The notes beneath the pieces were generated by a model, which saw nothing but the letters and a program-made list of their open reading frames with translations, was not told the DNA's origin and did not search any database. Positions 1 to 29,823 of a stretch of DNA of 29,823 nt are shown here, in pieces. The DNA lies in the IMG/VR virus record IMGVR_UViG_3300032291_001438, positions 1-29,823 of that record; one strand, given 5' to 3'. Source of the DNA: a virus. The translations under genes and the position numbers were made by a program. The number at the start of each line of letters is the position of its first letter. Within the stretch, counting starts at the first letter, position 1.

Positions 1-123
1 ACGCCTACGCCTACGCCTACGCCTACGCCTACACCTACGCCTACGCCAACACCAACGCCTACGCCAACACCAACGCCAACACCAACACCAACACCAACGC
101 CAACACCAACACCAACACCAACG
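1..123. repeat. Left copy of 123-bp terminal direct repeat (circular overlap)
   Basis: Bases 1-123 are identical to 29701-29823. The repeat is made of hexamers ACGCCT, ACACCT, ACGCCA and ACACCA, all coding Thr-Pro. It lies inside one reading frame that starts at 29119 and stops at 405. The most likely meaning is an assembly overlap of a circular or circularly permuted genome, broken inside a low-complexity repeat. A true terminal repeat is possible but less likely. Confidence 0.9.
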
Positions 124-405
124 CCAACGCCTACGCCTACGCCACCGGCAACGTATTCTTTTTTATTAGCATATGATGCTAGTAGTGGACCAGGTGCATG
201 TACAAATTATGGTACATATACTAATATGAGTACTAAATGGAGTTTAAGTAGTTCAATAGGTACTGGTGTATATTTGTATAATACACAATTGGGTGCACAA
301 ACTGGTGATAGTGGTCAATATGTAACTGATGGATATTATTCAAATGGTACAAATTATTGGTACTTTGCAGGTGGTAATACGGGAGATGCAGGTACTGCAT
401 GTTAA
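1..405 (+). CDS. 3' part of (Thr-Pro)-hinge tail fibre/baseplate protein, split by contig ends
   Basis: This is the C-terminal portion of the gene starting at 29119. The frame is open from base 1 and stops with TAA at 403-405. It codes 24 Thr-Pro units (1-144), then a compact C-terminal domain of about 86 residues beginning PPATYSF. That domain is rich in Gly, Ser, Thr, Asn and Tyr, holds one Cys near its start (GPGACTNYG), and ends in GTAC. The WYF and DGYYSNGTNYW segments resemble C-terminal domains of Bacteroidota phage fibre and surface proteins, which may bind host surface structures; that is inference. There is no start codon in this part because the N-terminus lies at the other end of the window. 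Joined length is 328 aa. The exact Thr-Pro count is uncertain because the assembly breaks here. Confidence 0.85.
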   Translation, partial: TPTPTPTPTPTPTPTPTPTPTPTPTPTPTPTPTPTPTPTPTPTPTPTPPATYSFLLAYDASSGPGACTNYGTYTNMSTKWSLSSSIGTGVYLYNTQLGAQTGDSGQYVTDGYYSNGTNYWYFAGGNTGDAGTAC

Positions 406-444: not shown

Positions 445-588
445 ATGATAAAGCACTTAATAGATTTATTAAATAAAAACGATTACTATGGTGTATCTAA
501 AAACATTGATATAGCTAAAGGAAAATATTCAATTCCATATAAATGGAAAGATGGATTTAAACAAATAAAGAGAATTTGGTATGGATAA
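445..588 (+). CDS. Small 47-aa ORF overlapping the tape measure start
   Basis: The frame opens with ATG at 445 (MIKHLIDLLNKNDYYG) and stops at 586-588, 8 bases into the tape measure gene. The product is basic and rich in Lys, Ile and Tyr, with no membrane segment and no family I recognise. It fills an otherwise empty gap of 175 bases between the fibre gene and the tape measure gene, and its end overlaps the next start in an arrangement suited to translational coupling. It could be a small tail protein or a leader peptide. It could also be chance in AT-rich DNA, although a 47-codon ORF ending exactly at the next start is suggestive. Confidence 0.45.
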   Translation: MIKHLIDLLNKNDYYGVSKNIDIAKGKYSIPYKWKDGFKQIKRIWYG

Positions 589-3103
589 TACTACTACATA
601 CACAACAACAATAGATGTTGAGGTAACAGGTCAGGAAGATTTACAACAATTAGGTGAAAAAGCCGAACAAAATGATTCGAAATTTAAATCTTTAAAATCT
701 CAAATCAGAGAAACAACTGTTGCTTTACAAAAATTGGCTGATGCTGGGCAAGAAGGTACAAAGGATTTTGAAGATTTAAGAACAAAATTGGATGATTTAA
801 ATGATGCTCAAGAAAGAGTAGCATTCCAATCAGGCCAAATTGATGATAAGTTAGCATCTTTACCTGGTCCAGTAGGGCAAGTTGGACAAGCTATTCAGGG
901 TTTCAATGAATCGGTAAATAGATTTGGTAAAGGATTAACTGCTGCATTAGGTGTAGTTGGTTTAATAGTAGGAGCTTTTTTAGCATTAAAAGAATCTTTA
1001 AGTAGAACTGAAGAAGGACAAAAGAAATTAACACAAATTACTGAAGCATTTACTAAGATAATGAACGGATTGTTTGCTATCATAGAACCAATTGCTATGT
1101 TGTTAGCAGATTTAGTTGTTCAGTTTCTATCAAACGATAAAGTTCTTAAAGTACTATCTAAAACATTTGCTACTTTTGCAGCTATTGTAAAAGGTTCATT
1201 TACTATTGTAAAAGAACTAGCTACCTTTGTAGGTAATAACTTAGTTAATACTTTTAAAACTGCAGCTGGTATTATAGGTGGATTTGGTAAAGTATTAGGT
1301 GGAGTATTCACATTTGATTTAGATAAGATTAAAGAAGGTTTAGCTGAAGTTGGAAAGACTGTAACTACTGGAGTTGGTAATTTTGTAAACAATGTTAAAG
1401 ATAGATACAAAGGAATTAAGGATGGTGTTGGTGAAGCATTTGTAGGTGCTGAAACTCAATTTACAAAAGGTACAAAGAGATTAACCGATTTAGAAAAGAA
1501 GAATTTAGAAGAACAAAAGAAAAAGGATAAAGAAGCAGCAGATGCAGCTAAAGCAGCAGCAGAAAAAGCACTTCAGGATAGATTAAAATACTTAGATGCA
1601 ATAGATAGGTTAGATGAAGCTGCGTTAGAGAAGGAGAGACAAAATGTGTTAGCATCAGTAGCAATTCAGCAAGATGCAAATGCAAAACAATTAGAGTTAG
1701 ATAAACAATCTGAATTAGCTAAAGCAACAACTGTTGGTGAGAAACTTTTAATTGAGCAAGAATACCAAAAGAAATTAGATGAGTTACTTTTAGATGGTGA
1801 AGAAGATAGAATAAGAATAGAGCAAGCGTTTGCTAAAAGGTCTTTCGAAACTCGTAAAAAAGATATTGAGGATAAAAGAGCATTATATCCTAAAGCAAGT
1901 AACGAATACAAAACATATACTGCTGAATTAACTAAGTTAGATTCAGATTACATAAAACAAACTTCAGAGTTTACTAAGCAATTTTCTGATAATAATCAAA
2001 AAAGAATTGATGCACAAAAGAAAGCATTAGATAAACAAATATCAGATATACAAACTTATAATGATTTAGTTGCTGCTATTAACTTAGCTGCAATTAAGGA
2101 TGAGATATTAAGAGCAGAAGTTGCAAGAGAGCAAAAGAGAAATAAAGATGTTGAAGCAATTAAAGCAACTGCTGAATTTGCTAAACTAACTGCGGAAGAG
2201 CAAGCTGGTGTATTAAAGCAAATAGAGAAATCGTTCCAAAATGATTTGGCTAAGATTAGAGAAGATGCTAGAGTTAAAGAAAACGAAAAGTTAATAAAAG
2301 GATATGATGAACAATTACGTTTATTAGAACTTATAGGTCAGAATCTAATAGCTGGAACTAAAGCATATTTTGAGAATCGTGCTCTTATATTAGATGAAGC
2401 TGAAGCTAAGGAGTTAGCTAAGTTGGATATTACTGAAAGAGAGAAGACAGCAATAAAAGAAAAGTATGTTAAACTTCGTAAACAATTAGATGAAGATGAG
2501 ATACGTTCTTACGCAGCAGTAGCATCTCAAACACTATCTGCATTATCAGGTGTAACATCTGCTTTGGCATCTGCATTAGATGAGGAAGCTAAAACATCTA
2601 AAGAGGCATTTGAGAAAAGAAAGAAATTACAAAAGGCAACTGCTATTATGAGTGCAGCTAGTGGTATCATCCAAATACTTGCACAGCCATCTACATTACC
2701 ATCACCATTTGATTTTATTGTAAAGGGTATAAACGCAGCAGCTTTAGGTATAGCAACAGCAGTACAAATTAAGCAAATTAATGCTACACAATTTGAAGGA
2801 GGAGGTTCGGTATCTTCACCATCATTATCATCTGCATCTGCTACACCTCCTAGTGTTAAGTTACCAACAATTGAATCAAAAGGAGCACCAACTATACAAG
2901 GTACGCAAGGTGGGCAAAACCCAACAAGACAATTAGCTGAAACATTAGCTAATAGAACCGATAGGATGGTTACTACGTTAGAAGCAAATAATGAAAGACC
3001 TATTAAAACATATGTAGTTAGTGGAGATATGACAACACAACAGGCATTAGATAGAAGGACTAATAGAGCAGCAACATTTAGTGGAGGTGCAACATTAGGA
3101 TAA
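581..3103 (+). CDS. Tape measure protein
   Basis: This 840-aa protein would act as the ruler inside the tail tube and pass through the tail on DNA ejection. Residues 20-90 and about 290-640 are long, highly charged Lys/Glu/Ala-rich helices that should form coiled coils. Hydrophobic segments occur near residues 118-136 (LGVVGLIVGAFLAL), 160-184 (IIEPIAMLLADLVVQ) and about 640-735. Gly- and Ser-rich patches follow near the C-terminus. It is the second longest gene in the genome, as expected for a long-tailed phage. By the usual relation of about 1.5 angstrom per residue it predicts a tail of about 125 nm. It follows the distal tail genes around the circular join and precedes the protease gene. 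The ATG at 581 overlaps the end of the small upstream ORF. No lytic enzyme domain is visible. Confidence 0.85.
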   Translation: MDNTTTYTTTIDVEVTGQEDLQQLGEKAEQNDSKFKSLKSQIRETTVALQKLADAGQEGTKDFEDLRTKLDDLNDAQERVAFQSGQIDDKLASLPGPVGQVGQAIQGFNESVNRFGKGLTAALGVVGLIVGAFLALKESLSRTEEGQKKLTQITEAFTKIMNGLFAIIEPIAMLLADLVVQFLSNDKVLKVLSKTFATFAAIVKGSFTIVKELATFVGNNLVNTFKTAAGIIGGFGKVLGGVFTFDLDKIKEGLAEVGKTVTTGVGNFVNNVKDRYKGIKDGVGEAFVGAETQFTKGTKRLTDLEKKNLEEQKKKDKEAADAAKAAAEKALQDRLKYLDAIDRLDEAALEKERQNVLASVAIQQDANAKQLELDKQSELAKATTVGEKLLIEQEYQKKLDELLLDGEEDRIRIEQAFAKRSFETRKKDIEDKRALYPKASNEYKTYTAELTKLDSDYIKQTSEFTKQFSDNNQKRIDAQKKALDKQISDIQTYNDLVAAINLAAIKDEILRAEVAREQKRNKDVEAIKATAEFAKLTAEEQAGVLKQIEKSFQNDLAKIREDARVKENEKLIKGYDEQLRLLELIGQNLIAGTKAYFENRALILDEAEAKELAKLDITEREKTAIKEKYVKLRKQLDEDEIRSYAAVASQTLSALSGVTSALASALDEEAKTSKEAFEKRKKLQKATAIMSAASGIIQILAQPSTLPSPFDFIVKGINAAALGIATAVQIKQINATQFEGGGSVSSPSLSSASATPPSVKLPTIESKGAPTIQGTQGGQNPTRQLAETLANRTDRMVTTLEANNERPIKTYVVSGDMTTQQALDRRTNRAATFSGGATLG

Positions 3104-7325: not shown

Positions 7326-7769
7326 ATGAATAAGGAAGATTTAAAAAAATTACAGTTAGAATTAAAAAATATTGAATCAAATTTCAATATACCAGAATGG
7401 AAAATTGATAGAGCTGAAAGGATGAAATCACTTGCATCAATAGCTGCTTCATCAATACCAAACGAATTAAGACGTAAAGGTGGATTAAAAAATGTTGAAT
7501 CTGGTCATTGCAATCGTATTGCACATCTTGGTGGACAAGCAAATTCAAAATCAGGTCATATTCAGAGATTACAACCTATTGCTACAAAAGCAGCTAGTGA
7601 AGTTAATAAAAAGGAAGTTATTAAATTAGATAAAAAAGGAAATATTATTAAATCATATTCATCTATATTAGAAGCTTCTTTGGATAATAATAGAACACAA
7701 TCTACAGTATCAAACAATATAGCTGGTAGGACTAAGTATTGTGGTGGATTTAAATATAGGTTTAAATAA
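7326..7769 (+). CDS. NUMOD-containing DNA-binding protein (homing endonuclease remnant)
   Basis: The C-terminal ~50 residues (EVIKLDKKGNIIKSYSSILE then ASLDNN and GGFKYRF) match NUMOD1, the helix-turn-helix module found at the ends of HNH and GIY-YIG homing endonucleases. The middle carries two copies of a GG-x-x-N-x-x-SGH pattern, typical of linker regions in these enzymes. No nuclease motif (H-N-H or GIY-YIG) is visible. At 147 aa it is either a nuclease-less derivative used for DNA binding or a truncated homing gene. It follows the ATPase gene by six bases, apparently in the same transcript. Confidence 0.7.
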   Translation: MNKEDLKKLQLELKNIESNFNIPEWKIDRAERMKSLASIAASSIPNELRRKGGLKNVESGHCNRIAHLGGQANSKSGHIQRLQPIATKAASEVNKKEVIKLDKKGNIIKSYSSILEASLDNNRTQSTVSNNIAGRTKYCGGFKYRFK

Positions 7770-9150: not shown

Positions 9151-9543
9151 ATGGCAAGTAAAATAAAACAAATTACAGAAATTCCAGATTATTATATCAC
9201 TAACACAGGTCAAGTGTTCTCAACTCGTATATCACCTCGTTACAATAAGAAAGGTGAAATGAGACAAGTAAGACCAAAGCTAACTAAAGGTGGTTATCTT
9301 TATATTGGTGGTTACTCAGGAAATGGAGCAGATAAGAAAAGAAATTGGTTAAGGATACATAGAGTGGTTTATCAGGAGTTCGTTGGACCTATACCCCAAG
9401 GAATGGAAATTGACCACATAAATAATATAAAGACTGATAACCGATTAGAGAACTTACAAATGCTGAGTAAGCTAGATAATGTAAGGAAATGGTTTTTTAA
9501 AGATAAACAAATAAGAGATGCTAAAAAGAATAAAGTTAGGTGA
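9151..9543 (+). CDS. HNH homing endonuclease (NUMOD4 + HNH)
   Basis: The N-terminal part (ITEIPDYYITNTGQVFSTR) is a NUMOD4 DNA-binding motif. A central block (PKLTKGGYLYIGGY) is typical of the link, and the C-terminal HNH core reads IHRVVYQEFVG, MEIDHINNIKTDNRLENLQM, with the catalytic IDHIN...D..LENL pattern complete. At 130 aa it is normal length for a small phage HNH enzyme. It stands between complete genes and not inside an interrupted one, so it is a free-standing mobile gene, not intron-borne. Its 3' end overlaps the next gene by 26 bases. Confidence 0.85.
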   Translation: MASKIKQITEIPDYYITNTGQVFSTRISPRYNKKGEMRQVRPKLTKGGYLYIGGYSGNGADKKRNWLRIHRVVYQEFVGPIPQGMEIDHINNIKTDNRLENLQMLSKLDNVRKWFFKDKQIRDAKKNKVR

Positions 9544-14040: not shown

Positions 14041-17000
14041 ATGTCTCAATTAAACAAAACGCAGTTAGAACAAGAAAACCAAACTAACTTCCCAAATAAC
14101 AATACAGGTTTTATAACTCCTACTAGACTAAGAGAGTTTAATACTGATATGATTGACTCAATGACAACTGAAGGTCAATTCAATTCTGCTTCATCATCAT
14201 TAAGTGCATCAATAGCAATGCTTGAATTACAAGTAGATGCATTAGTATTATCAGGTAGTGGTGTTGTAATATTAGATGAAGGTGTATCACAGGGCTCAGC
14301 TACAACATTAAACTTTGTTGGACCTACTATACAAGTAAGTGTAACAGGTTCACAAGCTAACATATATGCTAACACATCTGGATTAGCAACAACTGGTTCT
14401 AATACATTTAGAGGTGGACAACAAATAAGTGGAAGTAGTGGAGTTACGGGTTCATTCAGTATAACAGGTAGTTTAATAATAAATGGAACATCATATGCAT
14501 CAGCAACAAGTGGAACATCCGGCACCGGAGGTACATCAGGTACGTCTGGGACTAGTGGAACGAATGGAACGGCTGGAACAGGCGGTTCATCAGGTTCGTC
14601 TGGAACAAGTGGAACTTCGGGAAGCAGTGGTTCGTCTGGTTCATCAGGTTCAAGCGGTTCAAGTGGAACTTCAGGAACTAGTGGAACATCAGGTACAAAC
14701 GGTACGGCTGGTAGTGGAGGTTCATCAGGAACTTCAGGCACTTCGGGCACAAGCGGAACATCTGGATTAGATGGTTCGCAAGGTGTAAGTGGAACTGCGG
14801 GAAGCAGTGGTTCTTCTGGAAGTTCAGGTTCATCTGGTTCAAGCGGTACATCGGGTACTTCTGGAACAAGCGGAACATCTGGTTCTAGTGGAAGTAGTGG
14901 TTCATCAGGTTTGTCTGGAACTGCTGGTACATCTGGTACATCTTTTCTATGGAGAGGAGATTGGAATAGTGGAACATCTTATAATATAAATGATGTAGTA
15001 TCATATAATGGTAGTTCATACATAGCAATAAATGGAGTTGGTAATACAAACCAAAATCCAGCAATACAAACTGCGTTTTGGTCATTAGTAGCATTAGCAG
15101 GAACAAACGGAACTGCTGGTAGTGGTGGTTTATCAGGTACTTCTGGAACAAGCGGAACATCTGGTGTTTCTGGTTCTTCAGGCTCATCTGGTTCATCAGG
15201 AAGTAGTGGAAGCAGTGGAAGTAGTGGAACATCAGGCACTAGTGGAGTTGATGGAACAGGCGGAAGTTCTGGAAGTTCTGGATTAAATGGAACATCTGGC
15301 ACAAGCGGTACATCAGGTACTTCTGGTAGTAGTGGTTCAAGCGGAAGCAGTGGAAGTAGTGGAACATCTGGTAGTTCAGGTATAAACGGAACATCGGGTA
15401 CATCGGGAGCAAGTGGTGATTTATATCGTACAACTTCAGTAACTTCATTTACATTAGGTAACGCAGGAACAATAACAGTAGGTACTGGATTAGCATATTC
15501 AGTAGCACAATCAATAATAATAGTATATGATGCTAACAACTTCCAAGAGTGTGAGGTAATAACTTACAATAGTGGAACGGGAGCATTACAATTTGCTGCA
15601 CCAACTAGAACTGTTGGTAGTGGCACATATTCAGCATGGACTGTAAACTTAGATGGTGCAAGTGGTGGAGATGGTTCTTCGGGTACTTCTGGTACATCTG
15701 GATTAACTGGAACTTCTGGTGTTAATGGTTCATCTGGTTCATCAGGAAGTAGTGGAACAAGCGGCACTTCTGGTACAAGCGGAACTTCTGGTTCTTCTGG
15801 TTCAAGTGGTAGCAGCGGTTCAAGCGGTAGTAGTGGAACATCTGGTACTTCTGGTAGCTCATTTACTTGGAGAGGACAATGGAACTCAATTGACATTTAT
15901 GTAGTAAACGATGTAGTAGAATATGATGGTAGCTCTTATATATGTGTAGTAGGTAATACTGATGAAGACCCAATAGCATATCCAGACAAATGGGATTTAG
16001 TAGCTCAAGCAGGAACAAATGGAACTGCTGGTTCAAGCGGTACTTCGGGCAGTTCAGGTTCTTCTGGAACATCAGGAACTTCTGGTACTTCTGGTACATC
16101 GGGAACATCAGGTATAAATGGTACAAATGGAAGTAGTGGTACTTCGGGTACATCTGGGACTAGTGGAAGTAGTGGTACTTCGGGCACTTCTGGTACAAGC
16201 GGTGTAAATGGAGTAGCAGGTAGTAGTGGGACATCAGGTACTTCTGGTACTTCTGGAATCAATGGTGTAGCTGGTAGCAGTGGAACTTCTGGAACAAGCG
16301 GTACATCTGGTACAAGTGGAAGTAGTGGAGCAAATGGTTCATCCGGTAGTAGTGGAACATCTGGTACTTCAGGTTCAAGTGGAATAAATGGAGTAGCTGG
16401 AAGTAGTGGAACATCAGGAACAAGCGGTGTAAACGGACTTGCTGGAAGTAGTGGTTCATCAGGTACTTCTGGAACATCAGGAGCAACAACAATATCAACA
16501 ATAGCTGATGATGGAATTGTACAGGGTACTGCAACATTCTTAAACTTTAGTGGAAGTGGTGTTACTGCAACTGTAAATTCAAACACAGCATCTATTATAA
16601 TATCTGGTGGTGGTGGAAGTGGAGCAGGATTCCCATTCTCTGGTTCTGCTGAAATAACAGGTTCTTTAATTGTAACTGGTAGTTACAGAAGTTTAGTTGT
16701 ATCAACATCAATAGCTTCAAATACATCATCAATAGATTTATCAAAAGGTAATTATTTTACTGCTGGTGTTAGTGGAAGTACATTCTTTAATTTCCAAAAT
16801 GCTAAAGCTGGTCAAACTGCTGAAATAATTGTGACTACATTAACAAATGGGGCATTAGCAACATTTGATACTCAATCTGTGTACTTTGCAGATGCTACAT
16901 TTTATGGACCAACTGTACCATCTCAATCAATAGATTTATTAAATGTATTCGTAAAAGATAACAATAATATTTTAATAGTACCAGATAAAAACTTTATAAA

Positions 17001-17856
17001 ATATCAAGTTAGTGAAGCTGTAACTGCATCTTATTTAGTAGTAGCAGGTGGAGGAGCTGGAGCTTATACTGGATTTAATGGTGGACGTAGTGGAGGTGGT
17101 GGTGCTGGTGGATATCGTAATTCATTTGGTACTGAATATTCAGGTGGAAATAGTGCAACTGAAACACCATTAACAATTGCTTTAGGAACTTCTTATACTG
17201 TAACTGTTGGGGCAGGTGGAACTTTAAGAGGGTCTGGTTCATTATCTCAATTTAGTTCAGTTATATCAACCGGAGGTGGTGGGGGTGGTATTATGGATAA
17301 TGTTGGTGGAGCTGCTGGAGCAGGAGGAAGTGGTGGTGGAGCTGGTGCTAATGGTTCTGGTGGAAGTACATTAGCAGGTGGTTTAGGTATTTCTACTCAA
17401 GGATTTAATGGAGGTACTACTGCAGCTGGTTCTGATGTTGCTGGTTCTGGTGGAGGTGGTGCTGGAGCAGTTGGTGGAAATGGAGCTAGTGCAGTTGGTG
17501 GAGCTGGTGGAACCGGATTAGCATCATCAATCACAGGCACTTCTGTAACTAGAGCTGGTGGTGGTGGTGCATATGGTGGTAATAGTGGTGGAGCTGGAGG
17601 AGATGGTGGTGGTGGAGCTGGAGGAACTGGTGGTGGAACTGCGGTAGCAGGTACTGCAAATACTGGAGGTGGTTCAGGTGGTGAATCTTCTGGAAATGGT
17701 GAACCTGGCGGTAGTGGTGTAGTAATCATTAGATTTCCAGCAACATTAACAGCAACATTCACTGGAGGTGTAACACAAACAACATCAACTATTGGATTAG
17801 CAAAAGTTGCTACTATAACTGCAGCTGGTGTAAGTGATACTGTAACATTTAGTTAA
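14041..17856 (+). CDS. Collagen-like tail fibre with binding modules and Gly-rich C-terminus
   Basis: This 1271-aa protein is the largest in the genome. Residues 1-150 form a beta-rich head with a DEGVSQGSATTLNFVG module (79-110). Residues about 157-300, 360-455, 545-600 and 660-812 are collagen-like Gly-X-Y repeats, nearly all GTSG, GSSG and GTNG. Three globular inserts interrupt them: two paralogous modules (about 301-355 and 606-660; WRGDWNSGTSYNINDVVSYN and WRGQWNSIDIYVVNDVVEYD) resembling carbohydrate-binding domains of the CBM5/12 type, and a beta domain at 458-545. Residues 823-855 repeat the head module (DDGIVQGTATFLNFSG). Residues about 998-1240 are a Gly-rich domain starting YLVVAGGGAG. 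I infer a trimeric fibre or capsid appendage that binds host glycans. Confidence 0.75.
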   Translation: MSQLNKTQLEQENQTNFPNNNTGFITPTRLREFNTDMIDSMTTEGQFNSASSSLSASIAMLELQVDALVLSGSGVVILDEGVSQGSATTLNFVGPTIQVSVTGSQANIYANTSGLATTGSNTFRGGQQISGSSGVTGSFSITGSLIINGTSYASATSGTSGTGGTSGTSGTSGTNGTAGTGGSSGSSGTSGTSGSSGSSGSSGSSGSSGTSGTSGTSGTNGTAGSGGSSGTSGTSGTSGTSGLDGSQGVSGTAGSSGSSGSSGSSGSSGTSGTSGTSGTSGSSGSSGSSGLSGTAGTSGTSFLWRGDWNSGTSYNINDVVSYNGSSYIAINGVGNTNQNPAIQTAFWSLVALAGTNGTAGSGGLSGTSGTSGTSGVSGSSGSSGSSGSSGSSGSSGTSGTSGVDGTGGSSGSSGLNGTSGTSGTSGTSGSSGSSGSSGSSGTSGSSGINGTSGTSGASGDLYRTTSVTSFTLGNAGTITVGTGLAYSVAQSIIIVYDANNFQECEVITYNSGTGALQFAAPTRTVGSGTYSAWTVNLDGASGGDGSSGTSGTSGLTGTSGVNGSSGSSGSSGTSGTSGTSGTSGSSGSSGSSGSSGSSGTSGTSGSSFTWRGQWNSIDIYVVNDVVEYDGSSYICVVGNTDEDPIAYPDKWDLVAQAGTNGTAGSSGTSGSSGSSGTSGTSGTSGTSGTSGINGTNGSSGTSGTSGTSGSSGTSGTSGTSGVNGVAGSSGTSGTSGTSGINGVAGSSGTSGTSGTSGTSGSSGANGSSGSSGTSGTSGSSGINGVAGSSGTSGTSGVNGLAGSSGSSGTSGTSGATTISTIADDGIVQGTATFLNFSGSGVTATVNSNTASIIISGGGGSGAGFPFSGSAEITGSLIVTGSYRSLVVSTSIASNTSSIDLSKGNYFTAGVSGSTFFNFQNAKAGQTAEIIVTTLTNGALATFDTQSVYFADATFYGPTVPSQSIDLLNVFVKDNNNILIVPDKNFIKYQVSEAVTASYLVVAGGGAGAYTGFNGGRSGGGGAGGYRNSFGTEYSGGNSATETPLTIALGTSYTVTVGAGGTLRGSGSLSQFSSVISTGGGGGGIMDNVGGAAGAGGSGGGAGANGSGGSTLAGGLGISTQGFNGGTTAAGSDVAGSGGGGAGAVGGNGASAVGGAGGTGLASSITGTSVTRAGGGGAYGGNSGGAGGDGGGGAGGTGGGTAVAGTANTGGGSGGESSGNGEPGGSGVVIIRFPATLTATFTGGVTQTTSTIGLAKVATITAAGVSDTVTFS
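14509..16485 (+). repeat. Collagen-like minisatellite region
   Basis: The DNA is a set of nine-base (three-codon) near-repeats built from GGA/GGT, AGT/TCA/TCT/ACA and the like, interrupted by three unique stretches (14938-15110, 15413-15670 and 15853-16015). The synonymous codons vary heavily, which limits recombination between copies. The tract invites length variation, and its exact length from short reads deserves caution. Confidence 0.8.
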
Positions 17857-18620: not shown

Positions 18621-20201
18621 ATGCCTACTTTAAATCTAAATTATAACACAACTCCCACATTAGGAGAAGGTAAACGTAAATCACCTAGATACCAAGCTCA
18701 ATATATTATTGTAGCAGGTGGAGGTGGTTCAGCCGGTGGTGGAAATTTAAAAGCTGGACAAGCTGGAAATGGGGGGCAAGTATTACAAGCAGCGTATTGC
18801 TTTGAAGCAAACTCAAACTATTCAGTAAGAATTGGTGATGGGGGAAATGGTGGAGCGGTAAGTGGCAGTTTAGCTATAACTACTGGTTCATCAGGTCAAA
18901 CTTCATCACTTGCTGAAGTAATTGCATTAGGAGGAAATGGTGGAGTTTATCAAAGTGCGGTAACAAATTCATTTTTTGGTGGAGCAGGTAATAACGGAGT
19001 TTATCCTCCATCAAATGGTAATGGTGGTTCGGGTTCTCAATGGGTTTATAACTTAGAAGGATGTCTTCCTCCATTTACAGGATGTCATGGTGGTGAATAT
19101 ATTACATCATCTTATTATTCTGGTGGTGGAGCTGGCTTTATAGTTGGTGTTCCTGTCATAGAATATATGATTATCGGTGGTGGAGGTGGTGGTGCCTTTA
19201 AAGGAGGTGGCTGGGGAGGTGAATGGAACACAGGTTCATTTACAGCATTCCCATCTGAATCTTTTGCAATTAGTGTAGGTACTGGTGGTAAAAACGCTAT
19301 TACAACAGCATTTCCTAATAACTATGGTTTTATTGGTACATCATCTTTTATATCCGGTTCAAATGTAACTACTCCTTTATTTTTAACAGCAAGTGGTGGA
19401 AAAGGTGGAGCTGGAGGAACAGACCCTGAAAATGGTCTTGGTGGTGGTTCTGGTGGTGGTGTATATCCATATTCTTCATCAAATGACCAAAATGGTGCTA
19501 ATGGTATTCAATGGTTAGATGGATTCTACTATGGTGGTGGTGGTGGAGCATCAAGAGAAAACCCTATACCTGGTAATGGTAATGGTGGCTGGGGTGGAGG
19601 AGCTAATGGTGGAGGTTCTACTTCAACAGGTTCATTTGGTGGTGATGACCAAACATTCTATCCATTTGGAATTTATTCAGGCCCTCCGGGTTTGCCTGGT
19701 AATATTCAAGTTAATAGAAATGTTTTTGGAAATGGTATGGGTGCTGGTGCCTCTGGTTTAAGAACAGGTGGTGAAACTGGAGGAGCTGGTGGTAATGGTA
19801 CTGTAGTTTTAAGATATTCAGGAGCTCCAGTAGCAACTGGTGGTGAGATTATAACTTCAGGTTCTTTCACATATCACTATTTCGCATCTTCATCTAATTT
19901 TAATATGACACTTAGTGATTTATTAATTAGACCAGGAGCACCTGGTGAAAGTGGAGCAGTAACTGGTTCTAACGCAGCAAATAATACTGGTGGTGGTGCA
20001 GGAGGCTCATTCTATAATATATCAGGTTCTAAGGGTGGAAGTGGTTTTGTAGCATTTAGATATGAAGGATTAATTGTTAGTGCTAGTGGTGGTCAAATTA
20101 TTAATACTGACCATTATACTTACCATATCTTTACATCAAGCGGAAACTTTTATTCAGGAGAAGGAAATACTCAAAATCCAAACATTAACCCTTGTGGATA
20201 A
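18621..20201 (+). CDS. Gly-rich fibre/appendage protein
   Basis: This 526-aa protein is built from repeats of a Gly-rich domain. The first starts YIIVAGGGGSAGGG (about residue 27) with YSVRIGDGGNGG; the second starts IEYMIIGGGGGGAFKGGG (about 180) with FAISVGTGGKN; more GGGG blocks follow. Two C-terminal motifs (GGEIITSGSFTYHYFASSSN and GGQIINTDHYTYHIFTSSGN) are paralogous. The pattern [YF]x[IV]VAGGGG ... Y.V.[IV]G.GG is the glycine-rich domain of tail fibre and appendage proteins of many phages. It is related to the C-terminal domain of the protein at 14041, so these two probably act in one complex. A single Cys lies at the second-last position. Confidence 0.7.
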   Translation: MPTLNLNYNTTPTLGEGKRKSPRYQAQYIIVAGGGGSAGGGNLKAGQAGNGGQVLQAAYCFEANSNYSVRIGDGGNGGAVSGSLAITTGSSGQTSSLAEVIALGGNGGVYQSAVTNSFFGGAGNNGVYPPSNGNGGSGSQWVYNLEGCLPPFTGCHGGEYITSSYYSGGGAGFIVGVPVIEYMIIGGGGGGAFKGGGWGGEWNTGSFTAFPSESFAISVGTGGKNAITTAFPNNYGFIGTSSFISGSNVTTPLFLTASGGKGGAGGTDPENGLGGGSGGGVYPYSSSNDQNGANGIQWLDGFYYGGGGGASRENPIPGNGNGGWGGGANGGGSTSTGSFGGDDQTFYPFGIYSGPPGLPGNIQVNRNVFGNGMGAGASGLRTGGETGGAGGNGTVVLRYSGAPVATGGEIITSGSFTYHYFASSSNFNMTLSDLLIRPGAPGESGAVTGSNAANNTGGGAGGSFYNISGSKGGSGFVAFRYEGLIVSASGGQIINTDHYTYHIFTSSGNFYSGEGNTQNPNINPCG

Positions 20202-26991: not shown

Positions 26992-29112
26992 ATGGGAGTA
27001 GTTTCGCAACAAGGTATAAATTATCAGTTAGTAGCTGATGGTCAAATTTTAGACCTATTTAATGATGAGGATATTAAATTATCTGATAACGTAACAGGTC
27101 TATTTGATTTAGGTATAATTCCAGCTGATTTTACTCGTCAATTTACATTGCCAGGTACAAAAAAGAATAATGCTTTCTTTGAGCACGTATATGATATATC
27201 AATTTTATCACCCGATACGTGGGCAACTAATCAAAAGGTAAGTTGCTATTTAGATTTCGGTGGAATTTACATAGCGCAAGGATACCTTCAATTAAATAAA
27301 GTAAACGTTCTAGCTAATAAGTTTATTGATTCGTATGAGGTATCATTATATGGTGCTATTTCATCTTTCGCAAGAGAAGTTAATAGAACATACCTAACTG
27401 ATATGACGAGCTCTCTTGCTCAATTTAATCACAAAGCATCAATAAATAATATTACATCAAGTTGGAATAACGGATTGTTCAATGGAGCAATAGTATATCC
27501 AATGGCAGAATATGGACAAAAGATTATATATTCACCAGAAAGTGCATTAACAGGTATAGATGCACCATCAGGTTCCCTATTTGTTCAGGATTATAAACCA
27601 GCTATTAGAATAAAAGAAGTATGGGATGCTATATTTGAACAATACGGATTTACATATTCAGGTTCTTTTTGGGAGTATCCATTTTTGGACAATGTGTATA
27701 TGGTGTGTAATAACTCATTACGATATCCTATATTTACAGAAGAGAATTTAGAAAACTATGGACAGATAAAGATTGGTCCAATTAGTGGGAGTACTGGTGG
27801 ACAACTAACTCCATCTGCATCATCATATTTACCTTGGTATAATATTACTAATAACCCAGATAATAACATAAACTCTGATTTAGTATATGGTTTAGAGTAT
27901 CCATCTAAGTTAAGAGGAACAATAAACTTAAATATAAAGTTAAGTAATACATTAACTTCATCATTAGCTGGAACTCCTAAGTTTTTATTGCAAATATATA
28001 ATTTAAGTAATACAAAAATAGATAGTATTCCTTTAGTTGCTATAAATGAATACTTTACAAATTTACAAAGTGGGTGGAATTCGCAAGGATTACCAACACC
28101 TACACAAAAATATACAATAACTGATGAATGGAATAGTGCATACTTACCATCAGGTTCATACAAATTTGCTATTGAATATCAGGCAGTAAATTATAACTCA
28201 TTTGATGTTATATTGGACCCAGATGGTGAATTAAAATCATATTTAGAAGTTACAAAAGTTGGTAATGTTGGTGAAGGATGGAATATGAATATTGGGGCTA
28301 ATATGCCTTTTGGTACTAATGGTATAAAACAAATTGATTTTATTACTGCTGTACAAAAGAAATTTAACTTAGTAATATATCCATCAAAAACTAAACAAAG
28401 AGAGTTTGTAGTTGAAACATTTAATAATTGGTACAATAAAGGTACGTTGTGGAATTTTGATAATTACATAAACTTAGATGAAAAGATTGAAGTAATACCA
28501 GCTAACAATCTTGCAGTAAACGAATTAAACTTTGGTGACACTCTTGATAATGATTATGTATCGCAACAATTTTCTAAAGAAGCTAATAGAGAATATGCTA
28601 AAACTTATTATGTTGATACTCAAAACTTTTTCTCACAAGGTAAGTTTGAAGTTAAAACAAATTTTGCATCATCTCCACTAATATACTTAGATGGTACTGG
28701 TGTATCTGGTTCTCAATCTACTGTTGTAACTAATAAAGTAAGTGTAAGTGATGTTTTAGATAACACATATCAATTAGATTGTTTAGGTACACTTTACCCA
28801 GCTACCACAAGAGCAACTATTGCAAAATATACCGATTCAAGTGGTGTTGAAACTATAAACTATGGTTCACCTGTAAATGTTTTTGTAAATTATGATTTTC
28901 AACCTTGTTTTGGTGGAAGTTTTAGCACACAACATATAATTGTAATACCATTTGGTGCATCACAAACTGCATATGTTTATGATAGTAGTAGAAAAGTAGA
29001 TTGTGGTAGTGGAATTTGTATAGATGAAACACAAACAATAGATTGTGTAAGTTCAGTAAGTGGACAATCAGGTATAGCATTATATTCAGGTTCACCAATA
29101 GCAGCATGTTAA
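26992..29112 (+). CDS. Baseplate hub / tail-associated protein
   Basis: This 706-aa protein begins QGINYQLVADGQILDLFNDE, then NVTGLFDLGIIPADFTRQFT, LPGTKKNNAFFEHVYDISIL, a start known from large tail proteins of Bacteroidota phages (DFTxxFTLPGTKxNNxxF). A beta block follows (IAQGYLQLNKVNVL; SYEVSLYGAISSF). Residues about 440-500 (FGTNGIKQIDFITAVQKKFN, LVIYPSKTKQREFVVETFNN) resemble the hub fold shared with T4 gp27. The C-terminal ~70 residues are Cys-rich (QPCFGG, VDCGSGICIDETQTIDCVSS, ending AAC). It would form the central hub under the tail tube. It lies six bases before the fibre gene. Confidence 0.68.
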   Translation: MGVVSQQGINYQLVADGQILDLFNDEDIKLSDNVTGLFDLGIIPADFTRQFTLPGTKKNNAFFEHVYDISILSPDTWATNQKVSCYLDFGGIYIAQGYLQLNKVNVLANKFIDSYEVSLYGAISSFAREVNRTYLTDMTSSLAQFNHKASINNITSSWNNGLFNGAIVYPMAEYGQKIIYSPESALTGIDAPSGSLFVQDYKPAIRIKEVWDAIFEQYGFTYSGSFWEYPFLDNVYMVCNNSLRYPIFTEENLENYGQIKIGPISGSTGGQLTPSASSYLPWYNITNNPDNNINSDLVYGLEYPSKLRGTINLNIKLSNTLTSSLAGTPKFLLQIYNLSNTKIDSIPLVAINEYFTNLQSGWNSQGLPTPTQKYTITDEWNSAYLPSGSYKFAIEYQAVNYNSFDVILDPDGELKSYLEVTKVGNVGEGWNMNIGANMPFGTNGIKQIDFITAVQKKFNLVIYPSKTKQREFVVETFNNWYNKGTLWNFDNYINLDEKIEVIPANNLAVNELNFGDTLDNDYVSQQFSKEANREYAKTYYVDTQNFFSQGKFEVKTNFASSPLIYLDGTGVSGSQSTVVTNKVSVSDVLDNTYQLDCLGTLYPATTRATIAKYTDSSGVETINYGSPVNVFVNYDFQPCFGGSFSTQHIIVIPFGASQTAYVYDSSRKVDCGSGICIDETQTIDCVSSVSGQSGIALYSGSPIAAC

Positions 29113-29118
29113 TAAATT

Positions 29119-29823
29119 ATGGCAACTAAACAAAAAATATACATACCAACTTATATCTCCAGCGTAACATATCAACCTGCTAGAGTTCAACCACGTATCC
29201 TATTTTACAACTCAACTAAAAATTGTGAAACATATTACATAGCATCAGGTTCATCAGTTCAAGCACAAGAATCATTTCCATATTTTGACAATTATAGTGG
29301 AATTAATACAACATCTGATTCATTATCACTTTTATTTAATAATGAGGATGCACCATATGGTGTAATTCCATCTCAATCTTTGTACACAACTTATTGGGAA
29401 AAGTATGTTGATTTATTATACAATCCTAGAACTCGTTTATTTAACGCATCAGCGATTATTCCATTAGCAAAGTACTTTGAGATGGAATTAAATGATATCG
29501 TTCAATGGAGAGGAAATACATACCATTTAAGGGCAATTAACGATTACAATCTAAGTACAGGTGAATGTAGTATTCAATTATTAGGACCTATATTGGAAGG
29601 TGCATTATTTCCAGAGGAGTTTGACCCAACTCCTCCTGCACCACCAGTTCCTCCTAGTCCTCCAGCTCCTCCTAGTCCACCATCGCCAACACCAACGCCT
29701 ACGCCTACGCCTACGCCTACGCCTACGCCTACACCTACGCCTACGCCAACACCAACGCCTACGCCAACACCAACGCCAACACCAACACCAACACCAACGC
29801 CAACACCAACACCAACACCAACG
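29119..29823 (+). CDS. 5' part of (Thr-Pro)-hinge tail fibre/baseplate protein, continues at position 1
   Basis: The ATG at 29119 lies six bases after the hub stop. Residues 1-172 form an N-terminal domain (MATKQKIYIPTYISSVTYQP; LYNPRTRLFNASAIIPLAKY; FEMELNDIVQWRGNTYHLRA; DYNLSTGECSIQLLGPIL) of the kind that closes Bacteroidota hub proteins (a beta domain with W-x-x-x-Y-x-L-xxI ... L-xxP). A Pro-rich linker (PPAPPVPPSPPAPPSPP) leads to Thr-Pro repeats from residue 191, running into the contig end with no stop. Continuing at base 1 gives (TP)26 in total, a C-terminal domain and a stop at 405 (328 aa). The overlap 29701-29823 repeats 1-123 and must be counted once. It may carry the receptor-binding domain on a stiff stalk. 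Confidence 0.8.
   Translation, partial: MATKQKIYIPTYISSVTYQPARVQPRILFYNSTKNCETYYIASGSSVQAQESFPYFDNYSGINTTSDSLSLLFNNEDAPYGVIPSQSLYTTYWEKYVDLLYNPRTRLFNASAIIPLAKYFEMELNDIVQWRGNTYHLRAINDYNLSTGECSIQLLGPILEGALFPEEFDPTPPAPPVPPSPPAPPSPPSPTPTPTPTPTPTPTPTPTPTPTPTPTPTPTPTPTPTPTPTPTPTPT
29701..29823. repeat. Right copy of 123-bp terminal direct repeat
   Basis: It is identical to bases 1-123. It begins exactly at a codon boundary of the gene at 29119 (582 bases from its ATG), so joining 29700 to 1 keeps the frame. The unique genome length would be 29,700 bases. Confidence 0.9.

Follow-up and report, generated by a model that had tools for sequence, protein, structure and literature searches.

A phage gene cut by the ends of its contig probably encodes the second half of a two-ORF tail hub with a Thr-Pro linker and a putative host-binding domain

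We found that the two ends of the window (the whole stretch of DNA analyzed here, a virus record of 29,823 bases) very likely carry the two parts of a single gene. Its product would be the second half of a tail hub encoded by two ORFs, followed by a Thr-Pro (TP) linker and by a putative host-binding end domain, and the repeat coding for the linker probably broke the assembly.

Among lengths from 10 to 2000 nt, the sole exact suffix-prefix overlap of the contig ends is 123 nt long (copies at 29701..29823 and 1..123, on the + strand, as are the parts of this gene and its neighboring genes described below). Joining the ends on this overlap gives a gene of 987 nt, in frame, coding for 328 amino acids (aa) plus the stop, and both the reading frame and the phase of the TP repeat are kept. 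The 5′ part of the gene (29119..29607) encodes residues 1–163, hereafter the N-domain, while 29608..29823 encodes the end of this piece, then the Pro-rich linker and the start of the Thr-Pro tract up to the contig end. In the joined protein, the tract spans residues 191–242, with 26 Thr-Pro units without interruption, inside a stretch composed only of P, T, S, A, and V (residues 170–245); the 5′-end copy holds 24 of these units (1..144). The gene then closes with the C-terminal end domain, or bead (145..405), a presumed receptor-binding module that ends in Cys just before the stop. The initial annotation had described one gene cut by the contig ends, with an N-domain, a Pro-rich linker, 26 Thr-Pro units, and a C-terminal domain, and the joined protein has exactly this architecture. 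Its expectation that automatic annotation would miss the whole gene was too strong: an annotator allowing open ends gets two fragments, one of 235 aa with no stop (29119–29823) and one of 134 aa with no start (1–405).

A 30-base marker taken from the tract has two copies in the window, one per end, and TRF placed a period-6 array at the window ends only, with the 123-nt end repeat falling in this tandem array. The tract is G+C rich in an A+T-rich genome, as already noted in the initial annotation (60% G+C against 34% for the window). Furthermore, its codon use departs from that of the genome, since ACG encodes 16 of the 26 Thr residues of the tract and 4% of the Thr residues in 15 window genes. 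At lag 3, the order of the codon units gave a signal that was only weak (p 0.04, five lags tested), and we do not claim that slippage has recently expanded the repeat. The window gave no tRNA or Rfam match.

The N-domain had no match in Pfam and PHROGs. In a distant relative (locus L024), it forms the end of a single 731-residue frame, the start of which resembles the 706-aa protein encoded in the window just upstream of the N-domain (26992..29112); only a few bases separate the two window ORFs, the first stopping at 29112 and the second starting at 29119. The fused family comprised 16 loci, one of them being the L024 contig again. By hhalign, the 706-aa protein aligned to residues 3–560 of the fused 728-aa hubs (probability 99.9, E 1e-35) and the N-domain to residues 582–724 (probability 97.2, E 3.8e-11); as negative controls, the N-domain against the hub first half gave a probability of 1.4, and the end domain against the fused hub 0.1. 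On these alignments, the N-domain corresponds to the C-terminal ~145 residues of a tail hub of the gp27/Mu gp44 type, which is single-chain in other phages, and the 706-aa protein would be its first half (residues 1 to about 560) with a C-terminal end domain of its own. Nine relatives have this added domain in the same position, and in one case, L163, it also closes the second-half ORF. The alignments set the cut at about residue 568–577 of the fused chain, where the fused relatives have, by eye, a short loop of variable length. Among the contigs having both hub parts, 93/94 encode them on separate ORFs, and L024 alone has them fused.

By sequence, the fused hub had no match among solved structures. 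We then modeled a fused relative, L229, with AlphaFold, on an alignment of 34 sequences with rows from both halves, including those of the window (pLDDT 72.6, pTM 0.65). When the model was compared with 988 PDB chains using VIA-align, the top 27 rows were tail hubs, tail tips, and VgrG-type spikes, with Z from 12.2 to 8.8. These include the phiCD508 needle (Z 12.2, 286 residues, 4.5 Å), cyanophage A-1(L) (Z 12.1), the HFTV1 tail (Z 11.9), Mu gp44 (Z 10.6), T5 (Z 10.4), and T4 gp27 (Z 8.8, 280 residues, 4.8 Å). The predicted model thus has a gp27 hub fold, seen on the fused relative rather than on the window proteins. Foldseek TM-scores of the model were low, at most 0.54 on target among the matches listed, and the N-domain modeled alone was poor (pLDDT 48). 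In the viral library, 131 matches had E ≤0.001, some of them named for BACON or collagen domains. Inserted at residues 258–407 of the model is a domain with matches to TNF-like jelly rolls (TRAIL and CD40L, Z about 8), which rank below the hub rows; this domain is perhaps a decoration of the hub. The initial annotation had read the gene as a fiber gene, in which the N-domain would be the base of a separate fiber; the profile alignments, the fold of the fused relative, and the controls lead us to reassign it as the C-terminal piece of a two-ORF gp27-type hub.

The order of the genes in relatives bears directly on whether the join is real. IMG/VR scans gathered the loci around N-domain and tape measure homologs, giving 97 distinct contigs, 96 of them with the N-domain; in the counts of synteny and domain sharing, L151, L152, L158, L187, and L207 are left out as repeats of contigs already included, and other near-identical contigs are kept. 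In the window, the hub gene adjoins the tape measure gene (581..3103; PHROG 9483, tail length tape measure, E 5.1e-8), which stands downstream rather than upstream, and a conserved 47-aa ORF (445..588) lies between the two and overlaps the tape measure start. A homolog of the 706-aa gene lies directly upstream of the N-domain in 94/96 contigs, a homolog of the tape measure or of the 3129 protein lies downstream in 53/96, and both sides are present together in 51/96. The 47-aa ORF follows the N-domain in 57/96. The 43/96 contigs with no tape measure or 3129 match after the N-domain are those in which the stretch ends, a long insertion intervenes, or the gene has diverged. The closest N-domain relatives listed, which include L146, L147, L148, and L150, are 75–79% identical. 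Among them, L147 and L150 have an empty site: the N-domain, its stop, the 47-aa ORF, and the tape measure gene follow one another unbroken, with little between them, and L146 and L148 keep the same order up to their contig ends. This shared order confirms the join: the two window ends are neighbors in the genome, and the linker and the end domain are an addition that follows the N-domain.

Whether the genome is circular is a further matter. The direct end repeat, at 123 nt, exceeds the 20 nt required of a complete circular genome. Nevertheless, it lies inside a tandem repeat and is weak evidence of closure when taken alone: our low-complexity check by TRF identified it as a period-6 array (CheckV’s authors used dustmasker for this, according to the available part of PMC8116208), and the same part of that paper reports that 45,448 of 751,567 end-repeat contigs were dropped when the CheckV database was built, because low-complexity end repeats are likely false positives. 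Thus, of the circular genome proposed in the initial annotation, the adjacency of the ends holds, on the overlap and on the relatives. Closure is not proved by an overlap within a repeat, and circularity is only partly shown; the virion DNA may be a circle, or a permuted or redundant linear molecule.

We compared the tails that follow the hub domain in the best 80 of 245 confirmed N-domain relatives (L151, L152, L158, L187, and L207 being kept in this count). As many as 58/80 are extended by at least 107 residues, with 49 distinct tails, and may exceed 1000 aa with many domains; the other 22/80 are bare, ending at most 27 residues after the hub domain. A 20-residue stretch with at least 85% Thr, Ser, Pro, or Ala is present in 44/58 extended relatives, and most linkers of the extended relatives follow, by eye, a PTTTTT, STSTST, or VPTTL pattern. 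The longest Thr-Pro run among the 58 is 2 units, so the pure Thr-Pro hinge of the window is unusual in its own family, though common elsewhere.

The end domain of the window has no family in Pfam or PHROGs beyond weak hits to the tract and no significant match in named phages. Its one relative in IMG/VR, in L025, is 76% identical (82% at the DNA level over 260 nt). There, it lies within a 449-aa protein of a 67-kb phage contig, beside a G+C-rich PSPTP linker, and it is internal, among several domains. The window hub had no match in this 67-kb record (the hub search was positive in 4/4 other records), nor did the window terminase, in a search run without a positive control. A 76% identical end domain in a phage with no match to the window hub or terminase points to a module that moved between different phages, perhaps with the edge of the linker. 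Inside the family, we considered recent exchange of end domains among 41 distinct complete extended tails: the terminal domain was common to 21 of 820 pairs and more alike than the N-domain in only 1 of these 21. This signal is weak and suggests turnover of the end domains rather than recent swaps, leaving L025 as the one clear case across phages.

Two other readings of the gene have to be weighed against these data. An overlap wholly within a tandem repeat, in a setting where TP tracts often end contigs, could come from a linear fragment with two genes that both contain a Thr-Pro tract and are cut at the repeat, so that the overlap does not close the genome. We consider this extremely improbable: the genes flanking both sides adjoin in the unbroken relatives, the window has no second tract, and the frame and the TP phase are preserved over the end overlap. 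The initial annotation had itself raised the possibility of two genes, which the synteny in relatives contradicts. The domain order and the linker, as well as the extended relatives with many domains, would also suit an independent tail fiber, with its own attachment domain, rigid stalk, and tip. This reading is very unlikely, given that the N-domain matches the last part of the fused hub in the alignment and almost always comes directly after the hub first half; moreover, the bare relatives have the N-domain without any fiber part, so carrying a fiber is not its basic job.

The number of Thr-Pro units calls for a similar comparison. Contrary to what had been proposed, Thr-Pro tracts are not rare in phages: at least 120 stretches of (TP)15 or longer occur in IMG/VR. 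In the 120 loci listed (L026–L145), 21/140 TP tracts come to 10 nt or less from a contig end, where uniform placement predicts 0.19, and 27/140 lie within 150 nt, where it predicts 2.58; the longest among these loci reach 87 units (L096). If a 29.7-kb circle were cut at random, the overlap would fall within the 156-nt tract with a probability of 0.0011 (0.11%). Because of this low chance and of the enrichment of tracts at contig ends, the contig break at the tract is probably an assembly effect. Conversely, the tract could have exactly 26 units and the contig start could be the random cut of a perfect circle, as an overlap of k-mer length is what assemblers leave on randomly cut circles, according to the available part of PMC8116208. 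The low chance of such a cut and the enrichment of tracts at contig ends make this unlikely, and so does the joined linker itself: its longest internal repeat, at 41 nt, is too short to break an assembly graph with k near 123, which hints at more repeats or variants than were assembled. Longer or mixed tracts in the sample are a likely cause of the break. If repetitive DNA caused the break, 26 is the assembled number of units, and the true one may exceed it or vary in the population.

Under the preferred reading of one gene across the contig ends, the hub of this presumed Bacteroidota phage lineage would be made as two adjacent ORFs (26992–29112 and 29119 through the join to 405), the chains of which would assemble into one hub at the tail tip. 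The second half carries a Pro-rich linker that is ~76 residues long and includes 26 or more Thr-Pro units, and then the 86-residue end domain, which probably binds the host surface. The linker may act as an extended spacer holding the end domain off the hub. A polyproline II helix rises 0.31 nm per residue; in this conformation, the spacer could reach up to about 24 nm. The mode of action would resemble that of lambda gpJ or T5 pb3, hubs with C-terminal extensions. The tract had also been described as prone to O-glycosylation, and the protein gives no support for this: the Bacteroidota O-glycosylation motif, D-(S/T)-(A/I/L/V/M/T), has a single occurrence, which lies in the hub domain and outside the tract.

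A more general model can be put forward, tentatively and with more doubt than confidence. Cutting the hub at a surface loop would leave two free C-termini per subunit, and linkers of simple repeats would be joints prone to slippage and recombination. End domains could be swapped through the linker DNA and the linker length changed by slippage, so that host adhesion could be tuned quickly with no diversity-generating retroelement involved.

Other proteins of the window may also serve adhesion. A 1271-aa protein (14041–17856) with nine collagen-like stretches and with CBM5/12 and Gly_rich_2 domains is probably another surface or tail appendage, and a 526-aa protein with Gly_rich_2 stretches (18621–20201) is likely a second adhesion protein. 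Two ORFs (7326–7769 and 9151–9543) resemble, by eye, NUMOD/HNH homing endonuclease proteins.

The host is presumed to belong to the Bacteroidota. The assignment stays a presumption because two scans of 84,980 genomes, one with the N-domain alignment and one with the portal, found no relative, and because it relies on the terminase, for which Flavobacterium phages are the best among the matches listed (about 36% identical). Among named phages, the N-domain had no significant match (best E 1). A weak, non-significant hit (E 5) falls in Bacteroides phage BT03, in the last part of a gene that immediately precedes the tape measure gene, a position that agrees with the hub reading.

These results would give a function to an unnamed phage gene family, with 245 confirmed places in one IMG/VR scan: the second half of a tail hub, serving as a docking point for changing adhesion domains. 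In addition, hinges of adhesion genes coded by repeats break short-read assemblies, so the most variable genes of uncultured phages, which probably decide the host, are lost or halved in databases.

Our literature search, with most subscription journals outside its range, found no description of this linker or of this hub cut, and one may exist. Several known systems can be compared. The gp27/gp44-type hubs (T4 gp27, Mu gp44, the T5 tail tip hub, and the phiCD508 hub) resemble the predicted fold of the fused relative (model residues 1–728) and likewise adjoin the tape measure gene, whereas the window hub is made as two ORFs, each ending in an added domain. The hub of Nonlabens phage P12024L (AFM54766.1), annotated with a BACON domain, is a homolog (28% identity over 226 aa); unlike that of the window, it is one chain, and the Thr-Pro tract is not seen in the aligned sequence. 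According to the available part of PMC13243795, a single chain makes up the hub subunit in T5, compared with as many as three in lambda, where the cut point is a focus of hypervariability. Hubs of several chains, as in the window, are described there for lambda (gpL, gpI, and gpJ) and Salmonella phage Jersey, whereas the cut of the window hub falls near the C-terminal end, at the alignment position given above. Finally, in the evolved Tal proteins, lambda gpJ, and T5 pb3, the available part of PMC7291167 describes a hub followed by a C-terminal extension for adhesion. An additional variable domain after the hub is also what the extended relatives of the window have; in the window, however, the spacer would be a low-complexity (TP)26 linker on a separate second-half chain instead of fibronectin repeats.
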